A stretch of DNA of 21,408 bases from a virus: positions 1 to 21,408 of the IMG/VR virus record IMGVR_UViG_3300025671_000644; one strand, 5' to 3'. How positions within the stretch are numbered: the stretch's first letter is position 1; the number at the start of each line of letters is the position of its first letter. Made by a program: the position numbers and the translations under genes. Of the stretch, positions 7,703-16,553 are shown one piece after another. The notes beneath the pieces are model-generated. The model saw only the letters and a program-made list of their open reading frames with translations. It made no database searches and was not told the origin of the DNA.

Positions 7703-8323
7703 TCACAATTCACAAAGTAGCATTCGCACCTCTTGGAGCTCATCCTTTGTCAGAGCCGCCCTAAGTTTCTCGACAATCTTTATTGGGTTGCGCTGCATCT
7801 GAATGTATTCCTTTCGTATCCCAGCCTTGATACTTGCCTGGTGCGCTGACAATTCACCTGAGAGTACTTTCTGAGCCATCTCAGGGTTATCGCGTTTGAG
7901 GCGAGCGATTATGTAGTTTTGTCCTGAAGTGCTGTATTTCATCACCTGAGCATTAAACCTGTTAATAACAGGTTTTTCAGGCCTTCCTTGTGGCCCTAAA
8001 TCCCCAGCAAGTTCACTTCTTACTTCCTCCTTAATCCTATCCGGCACATAGTCAGCCCATTTGCGCAGATCCTCGCGCGTGCATTGGAGGCCGTGTGGAA
8101 TATGTGCCGCAAGAAAGTCATCAAGGGTTTCATGTCTCACTTCCTCACCTGTGTGCGGAATAATGAAATGCTTGTACTTGATTGTGCCATCCGGGTACTT
8201 TTCAAAAAGCATGTTTATCAAGTCAGGTACTACTGATGTGTTGCTTTTGTGTTCGCTGATTGACCTGGCAAGTGTCGGTATCATTTGGCCGACAAGTTTA
8301 GGTGTACTTATTTTGTTTTCCAT
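7703..8323 (-). CDS. Conserved phage-type protein with a C-terminal ARLKRDxPE...AGIRK motif
   Basis: This is a 206-residue protein. The C-terminal third holds YIIARLKRDNPEMAQKVLSG followed by ELSAHQASIKAGIRKEY. I recall this pattern (ARLxRDxPxxxxxVxxGExSxxxAxxxAGI) from phage, cyanobacterial and Bacteroidota proteins; it looks like a helix-turn-helix, so DNA binding is plausible. The N-terminal two thirds are unrecognised. The ATG overlaps the stop of the HNH-helicase by one base inside TAATG, so the two are translationally coupled and probably work together. The function is unknown. Confidence 0.72.
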   Translation of the reverse strand: MENKISTPKLVGQMIPTLARSISEHKSNTSVVPDLINMLFEKYPDGTIKYKHFIIPHTGEEVRHETLDDFLAAHIPHGLQCTREDLRKWADYVPDRIKEEVRSELAGDLGPQGRPEKPVINRFNAQVMKYSTSGQNYIIARLKRDNPEMAQKVLSGELSAHQASIKAGIRKEYIQMQRNPIKIVEKLRAALTKDELQEVRMLLCEL

Positions 8324-10293
8324 TACTTAAGTGTTTTTACAAATGCTTCTAAATTATTTTCATTTCTGATGTCAATAGACAATTCATTCAAATACGAATC
8401 CACTTCTTTCAGTGTTTCGATGTCATTGTCGTGCTTTTGGCCAATTGGCCCGAATTTGAAATTGACGTGGCGGCCAACTTTTTCCCATACTTGTACATGG
8501 TCGAAATACCCTTTATTCAGGATGTAACCAGCTATTTTGTTTTTCTTTTTTGAAATTCCATCATAAAACGATTTCATTATAGCCGCCGGGTCATCGCAGA
8601 ATGAATCTGTCAAATTTGTTACTTTATCCGGAACTTGAAATTTCTCCATAAAGGCCTGAATCATTCTCACCTTATCGTCAGGAGGGAGTATTGTACTGGT
8701 TGATGCAAGCATACTCTCAACAATATCTATCGCTTGCTGAGAATGTTGTATGCCATCAGATATGTGAGTTATCTTGTCAAGATCTTCAACAGTCAAATCA
8801 ATATCAATTCCATTTCTTTCTCTTGTATCGCCATCAAGATCAAGGTCTGAATATTCAATTGACTTTTCAATTTCCTGTCGTATATCTGCAATCTTTATTT
8901 CCTCCAGTACTTGCTCGGAATGTCGCTTTAGTTCTGGATGCTCCAAGATGTAGGCATAGCTGTAATTGACACATTTGGTACTCTGACTCCTCCTGTATTC
9001 ATCCTGAGTTACGCGAATTGTTCGGCCAACAATGGACTGCATGAAATAGAGATAGGTCTTATAAATGGACAGATAAACCCCAACGCGCAAGCGCGGAATG
9101 TCGACGCCTTCAGAAATCATGTTAACCGCGATAATACACTCATCCTCTGAATCCTTAAATCTCTGTATTTCTTTTGAGCTTGCTTGGTCTTCAGATGTCA
9201 CAACAGTTGATTGGATGTTGAAGGTCGGAGACTCCAGCCATCTTTGCAATGCGTATGCTGTATTTTTATCTGGAGCAAAAAGAATCATTCCAGCATTTGG
9301 CATGTCGGCATTTCTGATTTCTTGAAGCTTTGAATATGCGTGATCAATCACATCAGCAAGGTCAATGCTTTTCTCACTTACAAGCGCCCTGTATGCTAAA
9401 TTTAGTTGATTCTCTTTTTCGATTTCAGACAAAAGGCCATTGTAAGGATACTTGCCTTTCATGTCAATCTTAGGATCATAAAAGCTAAATTGAATCTTGC
9501 GACTGTTGCCATCATTAATTGAATCAGCATAACTGTACCCGTAATCAATTTTATATCCGTTAGGCACAAGCTCAAGAAATGGAATCCTCATATTGTCCTC
9601 GCGCCAAAATGTTCCGGATAGACTTATCACTCTTTCAGCATTTGAAAAAGCAAGTTGCGCGTAAGTTCCCCAGGCGCTGTGTCCGGATTCGCTCAGATGG
9701 TGTATCTCGTCAAAGACAACTGCAACATTATGTTTTTTGCAGAACTTGTTTATCTCTTTTGCGGTCGATTCATTGAGGCCTGCGTATGTCATCACAGCAC
9801 CGTCAAACATTTTTTTCTTGATTTTTCTATCGCTCGAATAATCCAACTGAATTGGAATTCCAAAGTAGGCAAGGAAATCCTCGCGCCATTCTGGTTTCTT
9901 GTTTTCTTGTGGGCTGATGACAAAGAAGAAATCAATTTTTTTAACTTCCAAAAGATAATCAATAATAAATGCAGCAGTCTTTGATTTTCCCGCCCCAGGT
10001 ACTGCGCCTATTGAATAGACTTTCTTATCTCGAGTTATGTAGTCAAGATAACAATTTCGTTGCCAAACTCGAGGCTCAAACGTCTTCCTTTTTACTTTCA
10101 TGGTATTGGATTTTGAAAGATTACACGACGGACAAAGTGCCTGACCATTTGCCAGATGAGTTTCTCCGCCTTTTGAAAATGGAATAATGTGATCAGCGTG
10201 CCAGTTTTCGGGCAGGGGTTTACCGCAGGATTGGCATCTTCCTTCTGATGTGTTGTACAGCGATTTTCGCTGGGCTCCTGAGAATGCTCTCAT
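8323..10293 (-). CDS. HNH nuclease fused to an SF2 DNA helicase
   Basis: This is a 656-residue fusion. Residues 18-62 are an HNH domain with a zinc site: C20 and C23, the core H32-A-D34-H35, N49, and C54 and C57, so the catalytic and structural residues appear intact. A superfamily 2 helicase follows: Walker A GAVPGAGKSKT (96-106), DEIHH box (195-199), SGT motif III (226-228), and motifs V/VI in NMISEGVDIP and QSIVGRTIRV (to 428). The last 200 residues are helical, acidic in part, and unrecognised. It could be a structure-specific nuclease-helicase for phage DNA processing or a defence-type protein. The gene is more AT-rich than the clamp and terminase genes, hinting at separate origin, and it heads a four-gene unit with its own promoter and terminator. 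Confidence 0.9.
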   Translation of the reverse strand: MRAFSGAQRKSLYNTSEGRCQSCGKPLPENWHADHIIPFSKGGETHLANGQALCPSCNLSKSNTMKVKRKTFEPRVWQRNCYLDYITRDKKVYSIGAVPGAGKSKTAAFIIDYLLEVKKIDFFFVISPQENKKPEWREDFLAYFGIPIQLDYSSDRKIKKKMFDGAVMTYAGLNESTAKEINKFCKKHNVAVVFDEIHHLSESGHSAWGTYAQLAFSNAERVISLSGTFWREDNMRIPFLELVPNGYKIDYGYSYADSINDGNSRKIQFSFYDPKIDMKGKYPYNGLLSEIEKENQLNLAYRALVSEKSIDLADVIDHAYSKLQEIRNADMPNAGMILFAPDKNTAYALQRWLESPTFNIQSTVVTSEDQASSKEIQRFKDSEDECIIAVNMISEGVDIPRLRVGVYLSIYKTYLYFMQSIVGRTIRVTQDEYRRSQSTKCVNYSYAYILEHPELKRHSEQVLEEIKIADIRQEIEKSIEYSDLDLDGDTRERNGIDIDLTVEDLDKITHISDGIQHSQQAIDIVESMLASTSTILPPDDKVRMIQAFMEKFQVPDKVTNLTDSFCDDPAAIMKSFYDGISKKKNKIAGYILNKGYFDHVQVWEKVGRHVNFKFGPIGQKHDNDIETLKEVDSYLNELSIDIRNENNLEAFVKTLK

Positions 10294-11381: not shown

Positions 11382-11500
11382 TTGCGCCCCATGTCAAGTC
11401 TCAAATCAAATACCTTCTGCAAATTCCAGACCTCCGTGTTTTTCTCGGCCATTTGTCGGAACTTCTTTCGTTGGGCTTCCTTCCACTCAGAAAGGGACAT
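11378..11500 (-). CDS. 40-residue charged protein
   Basis: This is a short basic helical protein, MSLSEWKEAQRKKFRQMAEK followed by NTEVWNLQKVFDLRLDMGRK. The frame is open back to 11563, but the ATG at 11500-11498 gives only a 14-base overlap with dnaB. Its stop overlaps the next start as ATGA. No family is recognised. The overlaps on both sides support a real gene; function unknown. Confidence 0.62.
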   Translation of the reverse strand: MSLSEWKEAQRKKFRQMAEKNTEVWNLQKVFDLRLDMGRK

Positions 11501-12821
11501 TATCGGTGTCGGTGTATGGGGTTGTAATTTCTGGGGGATAGTTCGCGTCTTTTTCTGCTTCATAAATAAATGAAAAGTTTGGATGTTTCATAAGTTCCAG
11601 CTGACCAGTTTCTCCGTGCCTATTTTTCTCGAAGATTAAATGTACAACATCTTCGGTGGAATTTCCATCATCATCAGTTTCAATGTTGTAGTATTCTGGA
11701 CGATGGATGAAAATGACTGAATCGGCATCCTGCTCGAGCGATCCCGAATCGCGAAGGTTATGAAGTGAAGGCGGCCTGCCCTTTGAGCCTGTGACAGATT
11801 CCCGATTAAGCTGAGACAAACACAAGATACAAGCATCAAGGCGGTCTTTTGCAGCAGACTCCTTTAGCCTCCGACTCATGTACCCAATCTCACCATTTCG
11901 ATTATTCTGATACCCCTCTTTACTCATCAACTGCATGTAGTCGATTATGAATAGCTCAATCCCAAACGATTCTTTCATGCTATACATCAAATCGAGAATC
12001 ACCTCAAAGTTACCTGGTGGGTTTTCGAGATACAAGGGCAAGTCCCCAATTTCCTCCGCCGCCTTGTAAACCTTTCGGAATTGGTCATCGGTTAAGTTCC
12101 CACGACTAATATCCGAATAAGAGATTCCAGTTGCAGCTGCAAAAAGTTTCTTTTCGATTTGGCTGGGTGACATTTCGAGGGTAATGATACCAACCTTACC
12201 GCCAGCTTTCGCGGTATTGTAGGCAAGACACAAGGCCATGGTAGTCTTACCCATCGCAGGACGCCCAGCCAAATAAATGAGGTCTGAGGGCTGCCATCCA
12301 GCAAGTCGGTCATCAATCGTTGTGTAGCCGCTGCTTGGCCCTAACAGTTTGAACTTACTACTCATTGCCCTTTCAATTTCTTGAATTGTTTCAATTGCAT
12401 AATAGCTCCTCTTATCCTCAGCACTAGCGTTTGCAATTAGATTCTCATATTCTGAAGTGATTTGCGCCATCACTTCCCCGTGCTTGGCTCCCTTGGATAG
12501 GTTCATGGTGTTGGCAGTCAAGATTCCAACCAGACCCTTTCGTATATTTTCCGTATAGAAATTCTGAATGACCTCCTCACTTGATTGCCGAAGGTCAGGG
12601 GCAACTGTGATGTAGTCGTATAGTTGATTAGGCTGAAGTCCTGCATTTTGCGCAATGTAGTTGACATCTATGGCTTGGAACTTGTCAAGGCACTCCCATA
12701 TCGAATCGGCCAGTGTCTTGTTTGACGCGCCAAACATCTCAGGAGAGAGCTGACTTGTGACATTGCGCAGATTGACCTTACCCTTGAGAATCGTTCCGAG
12801 AACTATTGCTTCTGTGTCCAT
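11487..12821 (-). CDS. dnaB: Replicative DNA helicase, DnaB family
   Basis: This is the hexameric 5'-3' helicase that unwinds DNA at the phage fork. It has 444 residues. The N-terminal helical domain covers about 1-100. The RecA-like motor carries Walker A GRPAMGKTT (186-194), Walker B LFIIDYMQLM (290-299), SQLNR (336-340), LRDSGSLEQDAD (356-367) and KNRHGETG (399-406). The C-terminal end is TDTDNVPF, resembling the acidic tip of SSB proteins. It overlaps the 102-residue gene by 19 bases, and that gene lies between it and the initiator, where phages often keep a loader. A TAnnTTTG promoter match lies inside it. Confidence 0.96.
   Translation of the reverse strand: MDTEAIVLGTILKGKVNLRNVTSQLSPEMFGASNKTLADSIWECLDKFQAIDVNYIAQNAGLQPNQLYDYITVAPDLRQSSEEVIQNFYTENIRKGLVGILTANTMNLSKGAKHGEVMAQITSEYENLIANASAEDKRSYYAIETIQEIERAMSSKFKLLGPSSGYTTIDDRLAGWQPSDLIYLAGRPAMGKTTMALCLAYNTAKAGGKVGIITLEMSPSQIEKKLFAAATGISYSDISRGNLTDDQFRKVYKAAEEIGDLPLYLENPPGNFEVILDLMYSMKESFGIELFIIDYMQLMSKEGYQNNRNGEIGYMSRRLKESAAKDRLDACILCLSQLNRESVTGSKGRPPSLHNLRDSGSLEQDADSVIFIHRPEYYNIETDDDGNSTEDVVHLIFEKNRHGETGQLELMKHPNFSFIYEAEKDANYPPEITTPYTDTDNVPF
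12005..12035 (-). promoter_or_regulatory. Candidate promoter inside dnaB
   Basis: TAACTTTG (12012-12005) with TTG (12035-12033) exactly 20 bases upstream. It is within coding sequence and could be chance; if real it would transcribe the 3' part of the operon down to the RuvC-like gene. Confidence 0.22.
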
Positions 12822-13111: not shown

Positions 13112-13992
13112 GGCTTTAGTTTTTTGCCGATCTCGGCCAGTTTATTAAATTCGTTGACATCACCCGGAACCACTCCCGAACTCGTAGCCGACCTCATCGA
13201 TGGGTCATCTTGCTTGAGTGGTTGGAGACTTGCTAAGATAGCAGATTTGATTTCTGAAGTTGTACGCCCTGAGGAAAGATGTTCAACGGTTTCTCGTAAG
13301 GGCTTCCATGCTCCGTAGTCAATCGAGGCATTGCGGCCAACGTATTCATTGAAATAATCCACCACCTCGCGGATCTGGGAATCGAAGCGTTCAGCCCCCA
13401 TGTCGTGCAGTCGAGATGAGAGTCTATCATTTTTCAAAAATTCAATCCCCCTTTTCTTTATTTCTTCTTCTTTATATTTATGTACAACTTTTTCGGGGGT
13501 ATCGTACGAAAAAGTGTCCGAAAGTCCGTATGGTGGACTATTCTTAAGTGATTGATTTTCATTTGACTTAGGTGTACGACTTTGCGTACTGTTTTGAGTA
13601 CGACTTTTTGCGGTTGAGCGTACAACTTTTGTACGACTTTTATCCTCCAAATTATTATAAGTGTCGTAGTTGCAAATAGTTACAAGCGTTATGTTCGTAC
13701 AAATTTCTGTCTTTATCATGCCCTCTTTTTGAAGCCTTTTCATGAAGTACTGGACTTTTGAGATTGTCCAATATTCATCTTTTGGCCCATTAAAACCTCG
13801 AACCAGATATCTGATTGGAGCAGCTAATTGTCCACGTTTTACGAATATTCCGCGGCCGCTGATGGTCAGCCATTGGTCCTTCCATTCAGCTTCAAGGATC
13901 ATCCATATCCATGCGTGAAACCATTCCTTTTTATCTCTGAATATCCAGCTATCTCGAATCTTTCGGTGAAGCTTTATGTATCCTTCATTCAT
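13108..13992 (-). CDS. Phage replication initiator (winged-helix replisome organiser)
   Basis: This is a 294-residue protein that probably binds the phage origin and recruits DnaB. Residues 1-110 look like the winged-helix domain of phage replication proteins (MNEGYIKLHRKIRDSWIF..., then KVQYFMKRLQKEGMI as recognition-type helix and a beta wing). Residues 115-175 are a Ser/Arg/Thr-rich linker with repeated KSRT and SRTQ. Residues 180-260 are helical with VVDYFNEYVGR and YGAWKPLRE. The ATG at 13992 is chosen because the open frame upstream (to a TTG at 14058) runs through an intrinsic terminator. Iteron-like repeats lie in the linker-coding part. Family assignment rests on domain look and gene order; helicase loading is inferred. 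Confidence 0.82.
   Translation of the reverse strand: MNEGYIKLHRKIRDSWIFRDKKEWFHAWIWMILEAEWKDQWLTISGRGIFVKRGQLAAPIRYLVRGFNGPKDEYWTISKVQYFMKRLQKEGMIKTEICTNITLVTICNYDTYNNLEDKSRTKVVRSTAKSRTQNSTQSRTPKSNENQSLKNSPPYGLSDTFSYDTPEKVVHKYKEEEIKKRGIEFLKNDRLSSRLHDMGAERFDSQIREVVDYFNEYVGRNASIDYGAWKPLRETVEHLSSGRTTSEIKSAILASLQPLKQDDPSMRSATSSGVVPGDVNEFNKLAEIGKKLKP
13487..13515. repeat. 9-bp inverted repeat next to the outlying iteron
   Basis: ACTTTTTCG (13487-13495) and CGAAAAAGT (13507-13515) pair perfectly around 11 bases that include the palindrome CGTACG in part. It overlaps the iteron copy at 13482 and lies beside the AT-rich tract. Confidence 0.4.
13574..13641 (+). repeat. Iteron-like GTACRACTTT repeat array
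   Basis: The copies are GTACGACTTT (13574), GTACGACTTTTT (13598), GTACAACTTTT (13620) and GTACGACTTTT (13631). On the coding strand the copies at 13574, 13598 and 13631 read as [KQ]SRT, while the copy at 13620 and the outlier at 13482 read as KVV in another frame. The DNA sequence, not the peptide, is therefore what is repeated. Confidence 0.65.
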
Positions 13993-14012: not shown

Positions 14013-14056
14013 AAAAAAAGCCAGCGAGCAGGACGGGACATCTGGAGCTCGCTGGC
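14013..14056 (-). terminator. Intrinsic terminator in the initiator leader
   Basis: GCCAGCGAGC (14020-14029) and GCTCGCTGGC (14047-14056) form a perfect 10-bp stem, 8 of 10 pairs G/C, with a 17-base loop. On the minus strand it is followed directly by seven T (14019-14013). It lies 20 bases before the initiator ATG and after the promoter at 14120-14150, so it would stop transcripts before the replication genes unless overridden. Confidence 0.85.
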
Positions 14057-14107
14057 AATGATTATGAGAAAAACCTTACTTGTCTTTGCTTGTAGGATGT
14101 CCCGTCC
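14031..14107 (-). promoter_or_regulatory. Attenuator-like leader with a 12-bp antiterminator option
   Basis: The terminator loop carries GGACGGGACATC (plus strand 14031-14042). Its perfect reverse complement GATGTCCCGTCC is at 14096-14107, upstream in the transcript. In RNA order this is segment a, stem strand b, a', b'. Only one base separates a' from b', too few to span a 12-bp helix, so the a:a' helix and the terminator stem should exclude each other. That is the layout of a terminator/antiterminator switch. The control signal is unknown. Confidence 0.6.
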
Positions 14108-14109
14108 AT
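14062..14109 (-). CDS. Putative 15-codon leader peptide
   Basis: An ATG at 14109-14107 opens MDGTSYKQRQVRFFS and stops with TAA at 14064-14062, five bases before the terminator stem. The start codon abuts and overlaps the 5' antiterminator segment (14107-14096), so a ribosome starting here would cover it and favour the terminator. Translation is not shown; a 15-codon ORF can occur by chance. Confidence 0.35.
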   Translation of the reverse strand: MDGTSYKQRQVRFFS

Positions 14110-14119
14110 GAAGCTTAGG

Positions 14120-14150
14120 CAAAGATAAGCGTATTAAATCAATTCTACAA
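14120..14150 (-). promoter_or_regulatory. Promoter of the replication operon
   Basis: TATCTTTG (14127-14120) matches TAnnTTTG and TTG (14150-14148) lies exactly 20 bases upstream, just after the 70-residue gene. A start about 5 to 8 bases downstream would give a leader of about 120 bases holding the leader ORF and the terminator before the initiator ATG. Confidence 0.7.
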
Positions 14151-14378: not shown

Positions 14379-16553
14379 TTAGAAAAGTTTAGTTTGTAAT
14401 TCTGATTCAATAGCGAACTTGTGATTCTTCACATTAAGATTAAAGTAGCTTTCCTTCAACTCAATACTGATTGACTTTCTATTCATCTTAAGTGCCTGAT
14501 ATCCTTCTGAACCAATACCACCAAAAGGACTGAATACTGTTTCACCCTCATTGCTATACAAGTGTATTATCCTTTCGATAGTATCAAGTTGAAGAGGGCA
14601 AATGTGCTTTTCATCATTATTATCCTTTGCAGACCTGTATTGCAAAGTTCTGCTATAATTTACGTCCATCCAGACTGGACTTGCGTAATGCTGCCAAACA
14701 TCAACTGGCAAATAGTCTGGCTTAGATGGATCTGTATCCTGATGAGTAATTGGTACTTTATTTTCACCCTCATTCCTAAAGAAAAGTACATAATCCGGAA
14801 TGCCAACACATGACATTGATGAATCCTTCTTAATGGTCTTGTGTAAAAGCCCTAATGATTTGGTTCTTTGCATCTGAGTTACTGGATTCTTCCAAATTGT
14901 AACTCTTGAATGGTAAATAAAGCCCTCGACTGAGAACATATTCTGGATAATTCCAGAGAAGTCTCTTAGCCCAATAACTCCATCCAAGCTTTTACGCAAA
15001 GGCAAATCCATGCAATGAACTGCGCATATTCTTCCAGGCTTCAGTATTCTTTTTAATTGCGGAATTAAGTATGAGAAATGAGTCTTAAACATCTCATAAT
15101 TTGAGACATTACCCATATCTTTTGGATTGTCAGAATACACATACAGCTCTGCAAATGGAGGGCTGAACACAATCAAATCGACTGAATTATCCTCAATCTC
15201 AGCTGACCTTTCTACACAATCCCCATTCATCAATAAATACTTATCTGACTTCACAGTATCAGATTCAATCTTCGCCTTAAACTTATCAAGAGAAGTGTAG
15301 TCTGCCTGAGATGAATACTTACTCATTTCTTCAATCATTTCTTTGTGATTTTTTTGTTTTTGTAAAATTGATTGCCTTACATTTTTTTGGCTCTCTGGAA
15401 TCATTATATGTACATTTACATTCTCTGATTGGCCAAATCTGTATGAGCGCCTTACGGCTTGATAAAACTGCTCAAACTTAAAGTCATAGGAGCAAAATAC
15501 CATGTTGTGACAATTTTGGAAATTCATTCCAAAGCTGGCAATACTTGTCTTTGTGATTAAAACCTTAAATTCTCCTTTGGCAAATCCATTCAATTTATCC
15601 GCCTTAAATTCTGGAGTGTCGCTACCTTTTACGTTAACTGAATCATTTATCTTTTTTGCAAGAAGTTCCGATTCAGTATTTCTTAGTGTCCATATGATCC
15701 ACTGTTTATCTGAAGAATTTACAAGGTTGGCAGTTCTTTCCACTCTTTCATTCATAGACCTATTTAGGTCTTTATGTAGATCAGTAGCAGATACGGCAAC
15801 ATCAGCAAATAAGGAGCCGGTATTATTTTGGACTGGAATAATATGTTCAATGTAGTTTATTTTAGGTAAATCATAACCACATTGAGATTCATCAATTCTT
15901 TTTGGATTATCAAGTGACATAGAAAATGTGCAAATGTATTTCCAGAAGTCATCCTTTGCATGTTTCCTAAGCCTCCATTTCTGTGTCTCACCACCATCAT
16001 GAACAAAGAACATCGCAAGCATTTCAGCGTATGTCATTGTTCCCAAAAACTCACTATGCTGGCCAAGTTCCATGTGGTCATTTGGCGATGGTGTTGCGGT
16101 ACATGCAAGCTTATATTTGTAGTTCCTAAATGAATCTATAATAAGAGATGCCATTTTGCCATTACCCTTCAATATACTTGATTCATCTAATACAACTCCT
16201 TTATATTGTGTTAAGTCGCAATTCTTTAATTGGTCGAAATTCACAACATCAATATTTGACAAATCAACACCAAACTTATTAGCCTCTGATTTAGTCTGCT
16301 GCACAACTGACAAAGGTGCCAATATTAAAACCTTCGATTGAGTATGTCTTGAAACATGATATGCCCATTCAAGCTGCATGAAAGTCTTTCCAAGTCCGCA
16401 ATCCATGAAAAGAGCAAATCTACCTTTCTTAAGCGCTATTTTTACAGCATACTTTTGCCAATCAAATAAATTGTCATTCAATTCATTTACCTCAAATCCA
16501 GTATCTATCTGAATCCTTTTCTTAGAATTTATAAATTGATTATAATCTTTCAT
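14379..16553 (-). CDS. SF2 (SNF2-like) helicase fused to a DNA methyltransferase
   Basis: From the ATG at 16553 this has 724 residues. The N-terminal half is a superfamily 2 motor: CGLGKT (52-57), LDESS (122-126), TATPSPND (152-159), and motif VI QAVRRSYRFGQ (365-375). The C-terminal part is an N6-adenine/N4-cytosine methyltransferase with motif IV FSPPF (463-467) before motif I SPFGGIGSEG (675-684), an order typical of the beta class. It probably modifies phage DNA; no partner endonuclease is visible here. The protein ends QTKLF, which fits the Qxx[LIM]F sliding-clamp motif. The frame is open to 16679, but that part overlaps the exonuclease gene. The gene is clearly AT-rich (15361-15420 has 17 G/C of 60, against 30 of 60 at 16741-16800 in the exonuclease), suggesting later acquisition. 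Confidence 0.92.
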   Translation of the reverse strand: MKDYNQFINSKKRIQIDTGFEVNELNDNLFDWQKYAVKIALKKGRFALFMDCGLGKTFMQLEWAYHVSRHTQSKVLILAPLSVVQQTKSEANKFGVDLSNIDVVNFDQLKNCDLTQYKGVVLDESSILKGNGKMASLIIDSFRNYKYKLACTATPSPNDHMELGQHSEFLGTMTYAEMLAMFFVHDGGETQKWRLRKHAKDDFWKYICTFSMSLDNPKRIDESQCGYDLPKINYIEHIIPVQNNTGSLFADVAVSATDLHKDLNRSMNERVERTANLVNSSDKQWIIWTLRNTESELLAKKINDSVNVKGSDTPEFKADKLNGFAKGEFKVLITKTSIASFGMNFQNCHNMVFCSYDFKFEQFYQAVRRSYRFGQSENVNVHIMIPESQKNVRQSILQKQKNHKEMIEEMSKYSSQADYTSLDKFKAKIESDTVKSDKYLLMNGDCVERSAEIEDNSVDLIVFSPPFAELYVYSDNPKDMGNVSNYEMFKTHFSYLIPQLKRILKPGRICAVHCMDLPLRKSLDGVIGLRDFSGIIQNMFSVEGFIYHSRVTIWKNPVTQMQRTKSLGLLHKTIKKDSSMSCVGIPDYVLFFRNEGENKVPITHQDTDPSKPDYLPVDVWQHYASPVWMDVNYSRTLQYRSAKDNNDEKHICPLQLDTIERIIHLYSNEGETVFSPFGGIGSEGYQALKMNRKSISIELKESYFNLNVKNHKFAIESELQTKLF

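Follow-up and report, generated by a model that had tools for sequence, protein, structure and literature searches.

The window analysed here is a 21,408-nucleotide stretch of viral DNA (IMG/VR record IMGVR_UViG_3300025671_000644), denoted W where it is compared with its relatives. Its minus strand carries a replication operon in which the gene for a DnaD-like helicase loader is followed by that for a 102-aa protein, which gave no match, and by the gene for a DnaB-like replicative helicase (Table 1). On the same strand, upstream of the operon leader, lie genes for recT, a recE-type exonuclease, a helicase-methyltransferase fusion and a 70-aa protein. Large fusion proteins are encoded at 14379-16553 (helicase and N6/N4 DNA methyltransferase) and at 8323-10293 (HNH nuclease and type III-like helicase), and two cell-wall enzymes, an Amidase_3 protein and a glucosaminidase, occur in this one phage (420-1133 and 19855-20511). 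No sign of lysogeny, such as a repressor or an integrase, was identified within the 21,408-base window.

The operon leader begins with a promoter of the Bacteroidota type. The -7 box consensus of flavobacteria is TAnnTTTG, placed at -12 to -5 (PMC9723704). The window's TATCTTTG fits this box and was found in all copies of the element described below, with TTG 20 nt upstream in the copies that precede loader genes and an unclear upstream element in L011. The promoter type points to the Bacteroidota, and the virus probably infects a member of this phylum. Because the TAnnTTTG box lies at -12 to -5, transcription is predicted to start at the A of AGCTT. In every loader-gene copy this motif starts precisely at the predicted +1, with variable positions from -4 to -1. 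The predicted leader RNA has the 5' end AGCUUCAUGGACGGG and a 3' end near 14013, and is about 100 bases long.

Two segments of this RNA, A near its 5' end and A' in the loop of an intrinsic terminator, are perfect 12-base complements of each other. A single base (14030) separates A' from the 3' arm of the terminator stem, and 20 bases separate the T-run from the loader ATG at 13992. An earlier note on this DNA had described the promoter, the 12-base match, a terminator with a 10-bp stem and seven T, the one-base gap between loop segment and 3' arm, and the 20 bases to the initiator ATG; each of these is where that note had placed it, and the whole does precede a replication operon, as the note had said, with the promoter followed by the loader, the 102-aa protein and DnaB.

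Table 1. Features of the replication-operon leader and the genes behind it (window coordinates).
Feature	Position	Strand	Remarks
Promoter, Bacteroidota type	14120..14150	-	TTG 14150-14148, 20 nt, TATCTTTG 14127-14120
Predicted transcription start (+1)	14115	-	RNA 5' end AGCUUC; from the -12 to -5 placement of the box
15-codon leader ORF	14062..14109	-	not conserved; probably not functional
Segment A, GGACGGGACATC, upstream arm	14096..14107	-	perfect 12-base complement of A'; covaries with A'
GCAAAGACAAG	14079..14089	-	near-complement of the -7 box region CTTATCTTTGC (14129-14119)
Conserved linker, GGTTTTTCTCATA	14063..14075	-	identical in W, L003, L004 and L008
Terminator stem 5' arm, GCCAGCGAGC	14047..14056	-	covaries
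Terminator loop	14030..14046	-	contains A'
Loop spacer, TCCA	14043..14046	-	TCC at loop start in 4/4 versions
Segment A', GATGTCCCGTCC, within terminator loop	14031..14042	-	perfect 12-base complement of A; covaries
Terminator stem 3' arm, GCTCGCTGGC	14020..14029	-	covaries
T-run of intrinsic terminator, 7 T	14013..14019	-	T5-T7 in all versions
DnaD-like helicase loader, 294 aa	13108..13992	-	phrog_2514, E 2.8e-26; first gene past terminator
DnaB-like replicative helicase	11487..12821	-	PF03796, E 1.3e-63; same operon as loader

Searches of viral contigs with exact patterns and with protein relatives gave the element before the loader gene in four relatives of the window (L002, L003, L004/L007 and L008), and a scan for terminators with a loop complementary to the RNA upstream gave a further copy in the same phage group (L011), some 900 bases past dnaB and ahead of a ParB-like/DUF4326 gene. 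Apart from these copies, the searches of viral contigs found none. Three candidates (L183-L185) proved to be chance pattern matches. The genome contigs searched contained no copy, the phage and plasmid records searched gave nothing relevant, and a broader pattern run against viral contigs returned, among the matches listed, no such loop pairing outside the known copies. Five Bacteroidota phage genomes lacked the layout as well: the best loop matches at their 158 terminator-like hairpins were 8-9 bases long, none with the linker motif.

The copies, all from one small phage group, fall into four arm versions. Three of these precede the loader gene and one precedes the ParB-like gene; at both of these operon positions the element stands between a promoter and a gene. 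Arm A reads GGACGGGACATC in W, L002 and L008, AAGGACCGCACAT in L003, GAGTAGACG in L004 and GTCTGACAAAC in L011, and each version has the perfect complement in its own terminator loop. Around the arms, the letters kept across versions are TATCTTTG, the linker GGTTTTTC(T/CA)CATA, the TCC that starts the loop and the T-run; the linker has one change in L002 and reads GGTTTTTCCACATA in L011. The promoter letters are identical in W, L002, L003, L004 and L008, and TATCTTTG recurs in the unrelated context of L011. All four versions have an intrinsic terminator, with stems of 8-11 bp followed by T5-T7.

Leaders and neighbouring genes occur in varied combinations. L002 differs from the window at 5 positions in 5.7 kb, one in the conserved linker (14067) and one at which the uppermost pair of the terminator stem is lost (14047); the other three cluster in dnaB, and assembly error is possible. 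L008 has the leader of W with a loader only 35% identical, and lacks (L008:2977-4110) the helicase-methyltransferase fusion that the window has between the recE-type and 70-aa genes. L003 has the loader and dnaB of W, but a different leader and a different upstream gene: between its 70-aa gene and the leader promoter lies a 227-aa gene without a Pfam match (L003:2155-2838) that is absent in the window, and the junction before the promoter resembles an insertion point. In L011, the protein encoded behind the leader (L011:2875-3903) combines a ParB-like N-terminal part, recognised by similarity to annotated phage proteins, with a C-terminal DUF4326 domain. The 5' part of this leader, ATGTCTGACA (L011:2768-2780), repeats the first ten bases of the following gene (2875-2885), so that the terminator loop could also pair with the start codon region of that gene. 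No such repeat was seen in the loader-gene copies.

Covariation was scored on an alignment of the four versions trimmed to the nine A:A' pairs and eight stem pairs common to all. All 17 pairs are standard in all four versions, in part by construction because pairs were chosen as present in every version; in 16 of the 17, both partners have changed, and no pair is broken. The covariation score is 1.30, compared with 0.40 in shuffles (0 of 500 reach 1.30) and at most 0.21 for slid partners. This support comes from four versions, because the element is known from one small phage group. Compensatory changes in both helices among relatives, a check that the earlier note had proposed, are thus strongly in evidence.

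Chance was assessed by holding the terminator loop fixed and shuffling the upstream RNA 20,000 times per version. Shuffled W RNA gave a match of at least 12 bases once, and matches as long as those observed arose 0, 4 and 4 times per 20,000 shuffles in the other three versions. The 1.68 Mb of fetched sequence, from which duplicates were not removed, contained 1,198 terminator-like hairpins, and loop matches of 11-13 bases occurred only in this element. The A/A' match is not due to chance. Because the relatives keep it with quite different letters, it reflects a real RNA structure, and covariation and the shuffle test together show that both helices, A:A' and the terminator stem, are real and under selection for pairing.

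Other pairings in the leader did not stand out in this way. The GCAAAGACAAG/CTTATCTTTGC pairing was equalled in strength by 90 of 2000 shuffles for W, 10 of 2000 for L008, 155 of 2000 for L003 and 28 of 2000 for L004, and is absent in L011 (718 of 2000 shuffles as strong). Support for it is thus modest in the loader-gene copies; this putative extra hairpin would form only in transcripts entering from the upstream genes. A small 5' hairpin between the first RNA bases and bases just past A was no better than in shuffles.

The earlier note had concluded from the one-base gap that the two helices should exclude each other. In most attenuators, the competing pairing overlaps an arm of the terminator stem. 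In this element A' lies within the loop and overlaps no stem arm in any version, so helix exclusion is not built in; mutual exclusion of A:A' and the terminator stem may nonetheless occur. Step-wise folding without pseudoknots gave A:A' a probability near 1 once A' was out in all four versions; A:A' forms before the 3' arm of the stem emerges, after which the balance shifts. In pseudoknot-free folding of the finished RNA, A:A' prevails in W (0.94), but L003 (0.94), L004 (0.99) and L011 (0.97) favour the terminator. With opposite winners in different versions, the two states are close competitors, and a finely balanced competition between them is plausible from these models. The helices may also coexist: all versions place A' next to the 3' arm and a spacer of 3-7 nt on its other side, the arrangement of an H-type pseudoknot, in which a loop helix can stack on the stem. 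By rough A-form geometry, an estimate made with our own parameters and not a model, crossing the deep groove takes 16 Å for 9 bp and 29 Å for 12 bp, and most of A:A' and the stem may fit together as a pseudoknot.

From the sequence comparisons we propose, at about an even chance, that the element is a cis-acting transcription attenuator in the phage replication-operon leader, with early A:A' pairing working against the terminator. The structure of the leader RNA probably decides whether the replication genes are read. Transcription from the promoter just upstream would yield an RNA of about 100 bases. Segment A would emerge at the outset, A' would follow after some 55 further bases, and the terminator's 3' arm would come at the end. 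Capture of the emerging A' by A would delay or strain closing of the terminator stem, and more polymerases would read into the helicase-loader and dnaB genes; with A held by something else, the terminator would close and the short RNA would be the sole product. We infer that A:A' pairing changes read-through, in the antitermination direction, and that access to A is controlled by a factor, which might be a protein, another RNA or the speed of transcription or translation. No sensor domain or leader peptide is conserved across the versions of the element. The term riboswitch, used in the earlier note, finds no backing in the sense of a ligand-binding aptamer, of which there is no sign and no Rfam match.

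In the earlier note the controlling agent was a ribosome on the 15-codon ORF, which is indeed present at the upstream segment; in W, L002, L008, L004 and L011 the first base of A falls within its ATG, a placement that would suit such control. The ORF does not persist as the helices do. L003 has AAG in place of ATG with both helices intact, the L004 frame continues through the terminator to the start codon of the loader, and the L011 frame ends after 8 codons. The resulting ORFs of 15, 38 and 8 codons encode unrelated peptides and share no stop position relative to the terminator, and no conserved translatable ORF with control codons was found. Because the ORF is not conserved while the helices are, a ribosome on it is ruled out as the common mechanism, and we regard ribosome-controlled attenuation as very unlikely. 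More improbable yet is a DNA inversion switch, in which A and A' would be the inverted repeats of a recombinase and flipping of the 53-bp core would pull the two stem arms apart and so abolish the terminator. The repeats are perfect over 9-13 bp, and the 5' arm lies within the flippable segment and the 3' arm outside it; yet every copy found has the same orientation, near relatives share no repeat core whereas a recombinase needs a constant site, and the covarying second helix, the promoter placement and the T-run would be left unexplained. The short RNA might instead be the product itself, a stable pseudoknotted small phage RNA with a job of its own, with the terminator merely forming its 3' end and the downstream genes read by a fixed leak or from elsewhere. 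The H-type arrangement in all versions fits this reading, as do groove distances that the spacer could bridge with slight fraying of the longest helices. Against it, the geometry is a rough estimate, and a position directly before the start codon at two genes better suits gene control; we consider it unlikely.

Somewhat unlikely, in our estimate, is recognition in trans, in which the exposed A' (or A) of the short terminated RNA would pair with a nascent leader of the same type and cause later transcripts to terminate, giving replication feedback or superinfection immunity with A and A' as lock and key. Cognate A:A' duplexes are predicted at -13 to -23 kcal/mol and non-cognate ones at -3 to -8, with one at -12.8, and P4 CI RNA is described as working by such premature termination ahead of replication genes (PMC4825925). 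In addition, W and L003 differ at 35 of 103 leader sites, an overestimate because the stem is shifted slightly in this ungapped comparison, versus 19 of 885 in the loader gene and 3 of 1335 in dnaB. Because the leader diverges far more than the neighbouring genes, recognition between RNA copies is conceivable, and selection for leader diversity, as a self-recognition device would predict, is possible. On the other hand, these phages combine leaders and flanking genes in mosaic fashion, so import of a diverged leader block suffices for the contrast without selection for diversity. Because A and A' share one RNA, pairing within the molecule should beat pairing between molecules, and the window's lack of any identified repressor, integrase or other lysogeny sign also weighs against this reading. 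The further idea that hypervariable A/A' letters let each phage type recognise its own transcripts and shut off the replication genes of its own kind we judge to be quite unlikely.

Rfam, with its known riboswitch families, gave no match at gathering cut-offs in the whole window; the best weak matches scored 16-20 bits against cut-offs of 43-70, and a known riboswitch or sRNA family was ruled out by this lack of a match. Several described systems share parts of the layout. The CI RNA/leader immunity of satellite phage P4 (seqA, seqC) is summarised as likewise involving an untranslated leader before replication genes, premature termination, complementary leader segments and a short RNA product (PMC4825925). 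It differs in that the antisense RNA of P4 is processed from the leader, whereas the present element pairs with the loop of its own strong intrinsic terminator; we found no sequence relation between the two. Antisense attenuators of the pT181 type also use loop pairing to decide between termination and read-through into replication genes, with specificity in exchangeable pairing letters (PMC3753616), but their antisense RNA comes from the opposite strand, while both partners here lie in one RNA. The leader of IsrK in prophage Gifsy-1 yields a short terminated RNA and a read-through mRNA as well; its short RNA frees translation of the long RNA, and pairing of a loop with a 5' segment is not described in the portion of the source at hand (PMC4825925). 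Classical trp/his leader-peptide attenuators have a promoter, a short ORF (as in W), competing hairpins and a terminator before the operon. Unlike them, the element has no conserved ORF or control codons, and its competing pairing uses the terminator loop instead of the 5' arm. A limited literature search found no terminator whose loop pairs with the 5' part of the same RNA through exchangeable letters. Leader attenuation as such is a known kind of control.

Very little regulation is known in this phage group, to which the element adds a covarying leader that Rfam lacks. If A:A' pairing controls read-through, attenuation in these phages would work through the loop of the terminator instead of a stem arm. 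Should one RNA molecule act on another, the element would be the phage equivalent of the RNA control known from P4 and plasmids. A lock-and-key role, if true, could provide copy control or superinfection immunity, and cross-talk between operons of the phage group would be prevented by giving each its own key.
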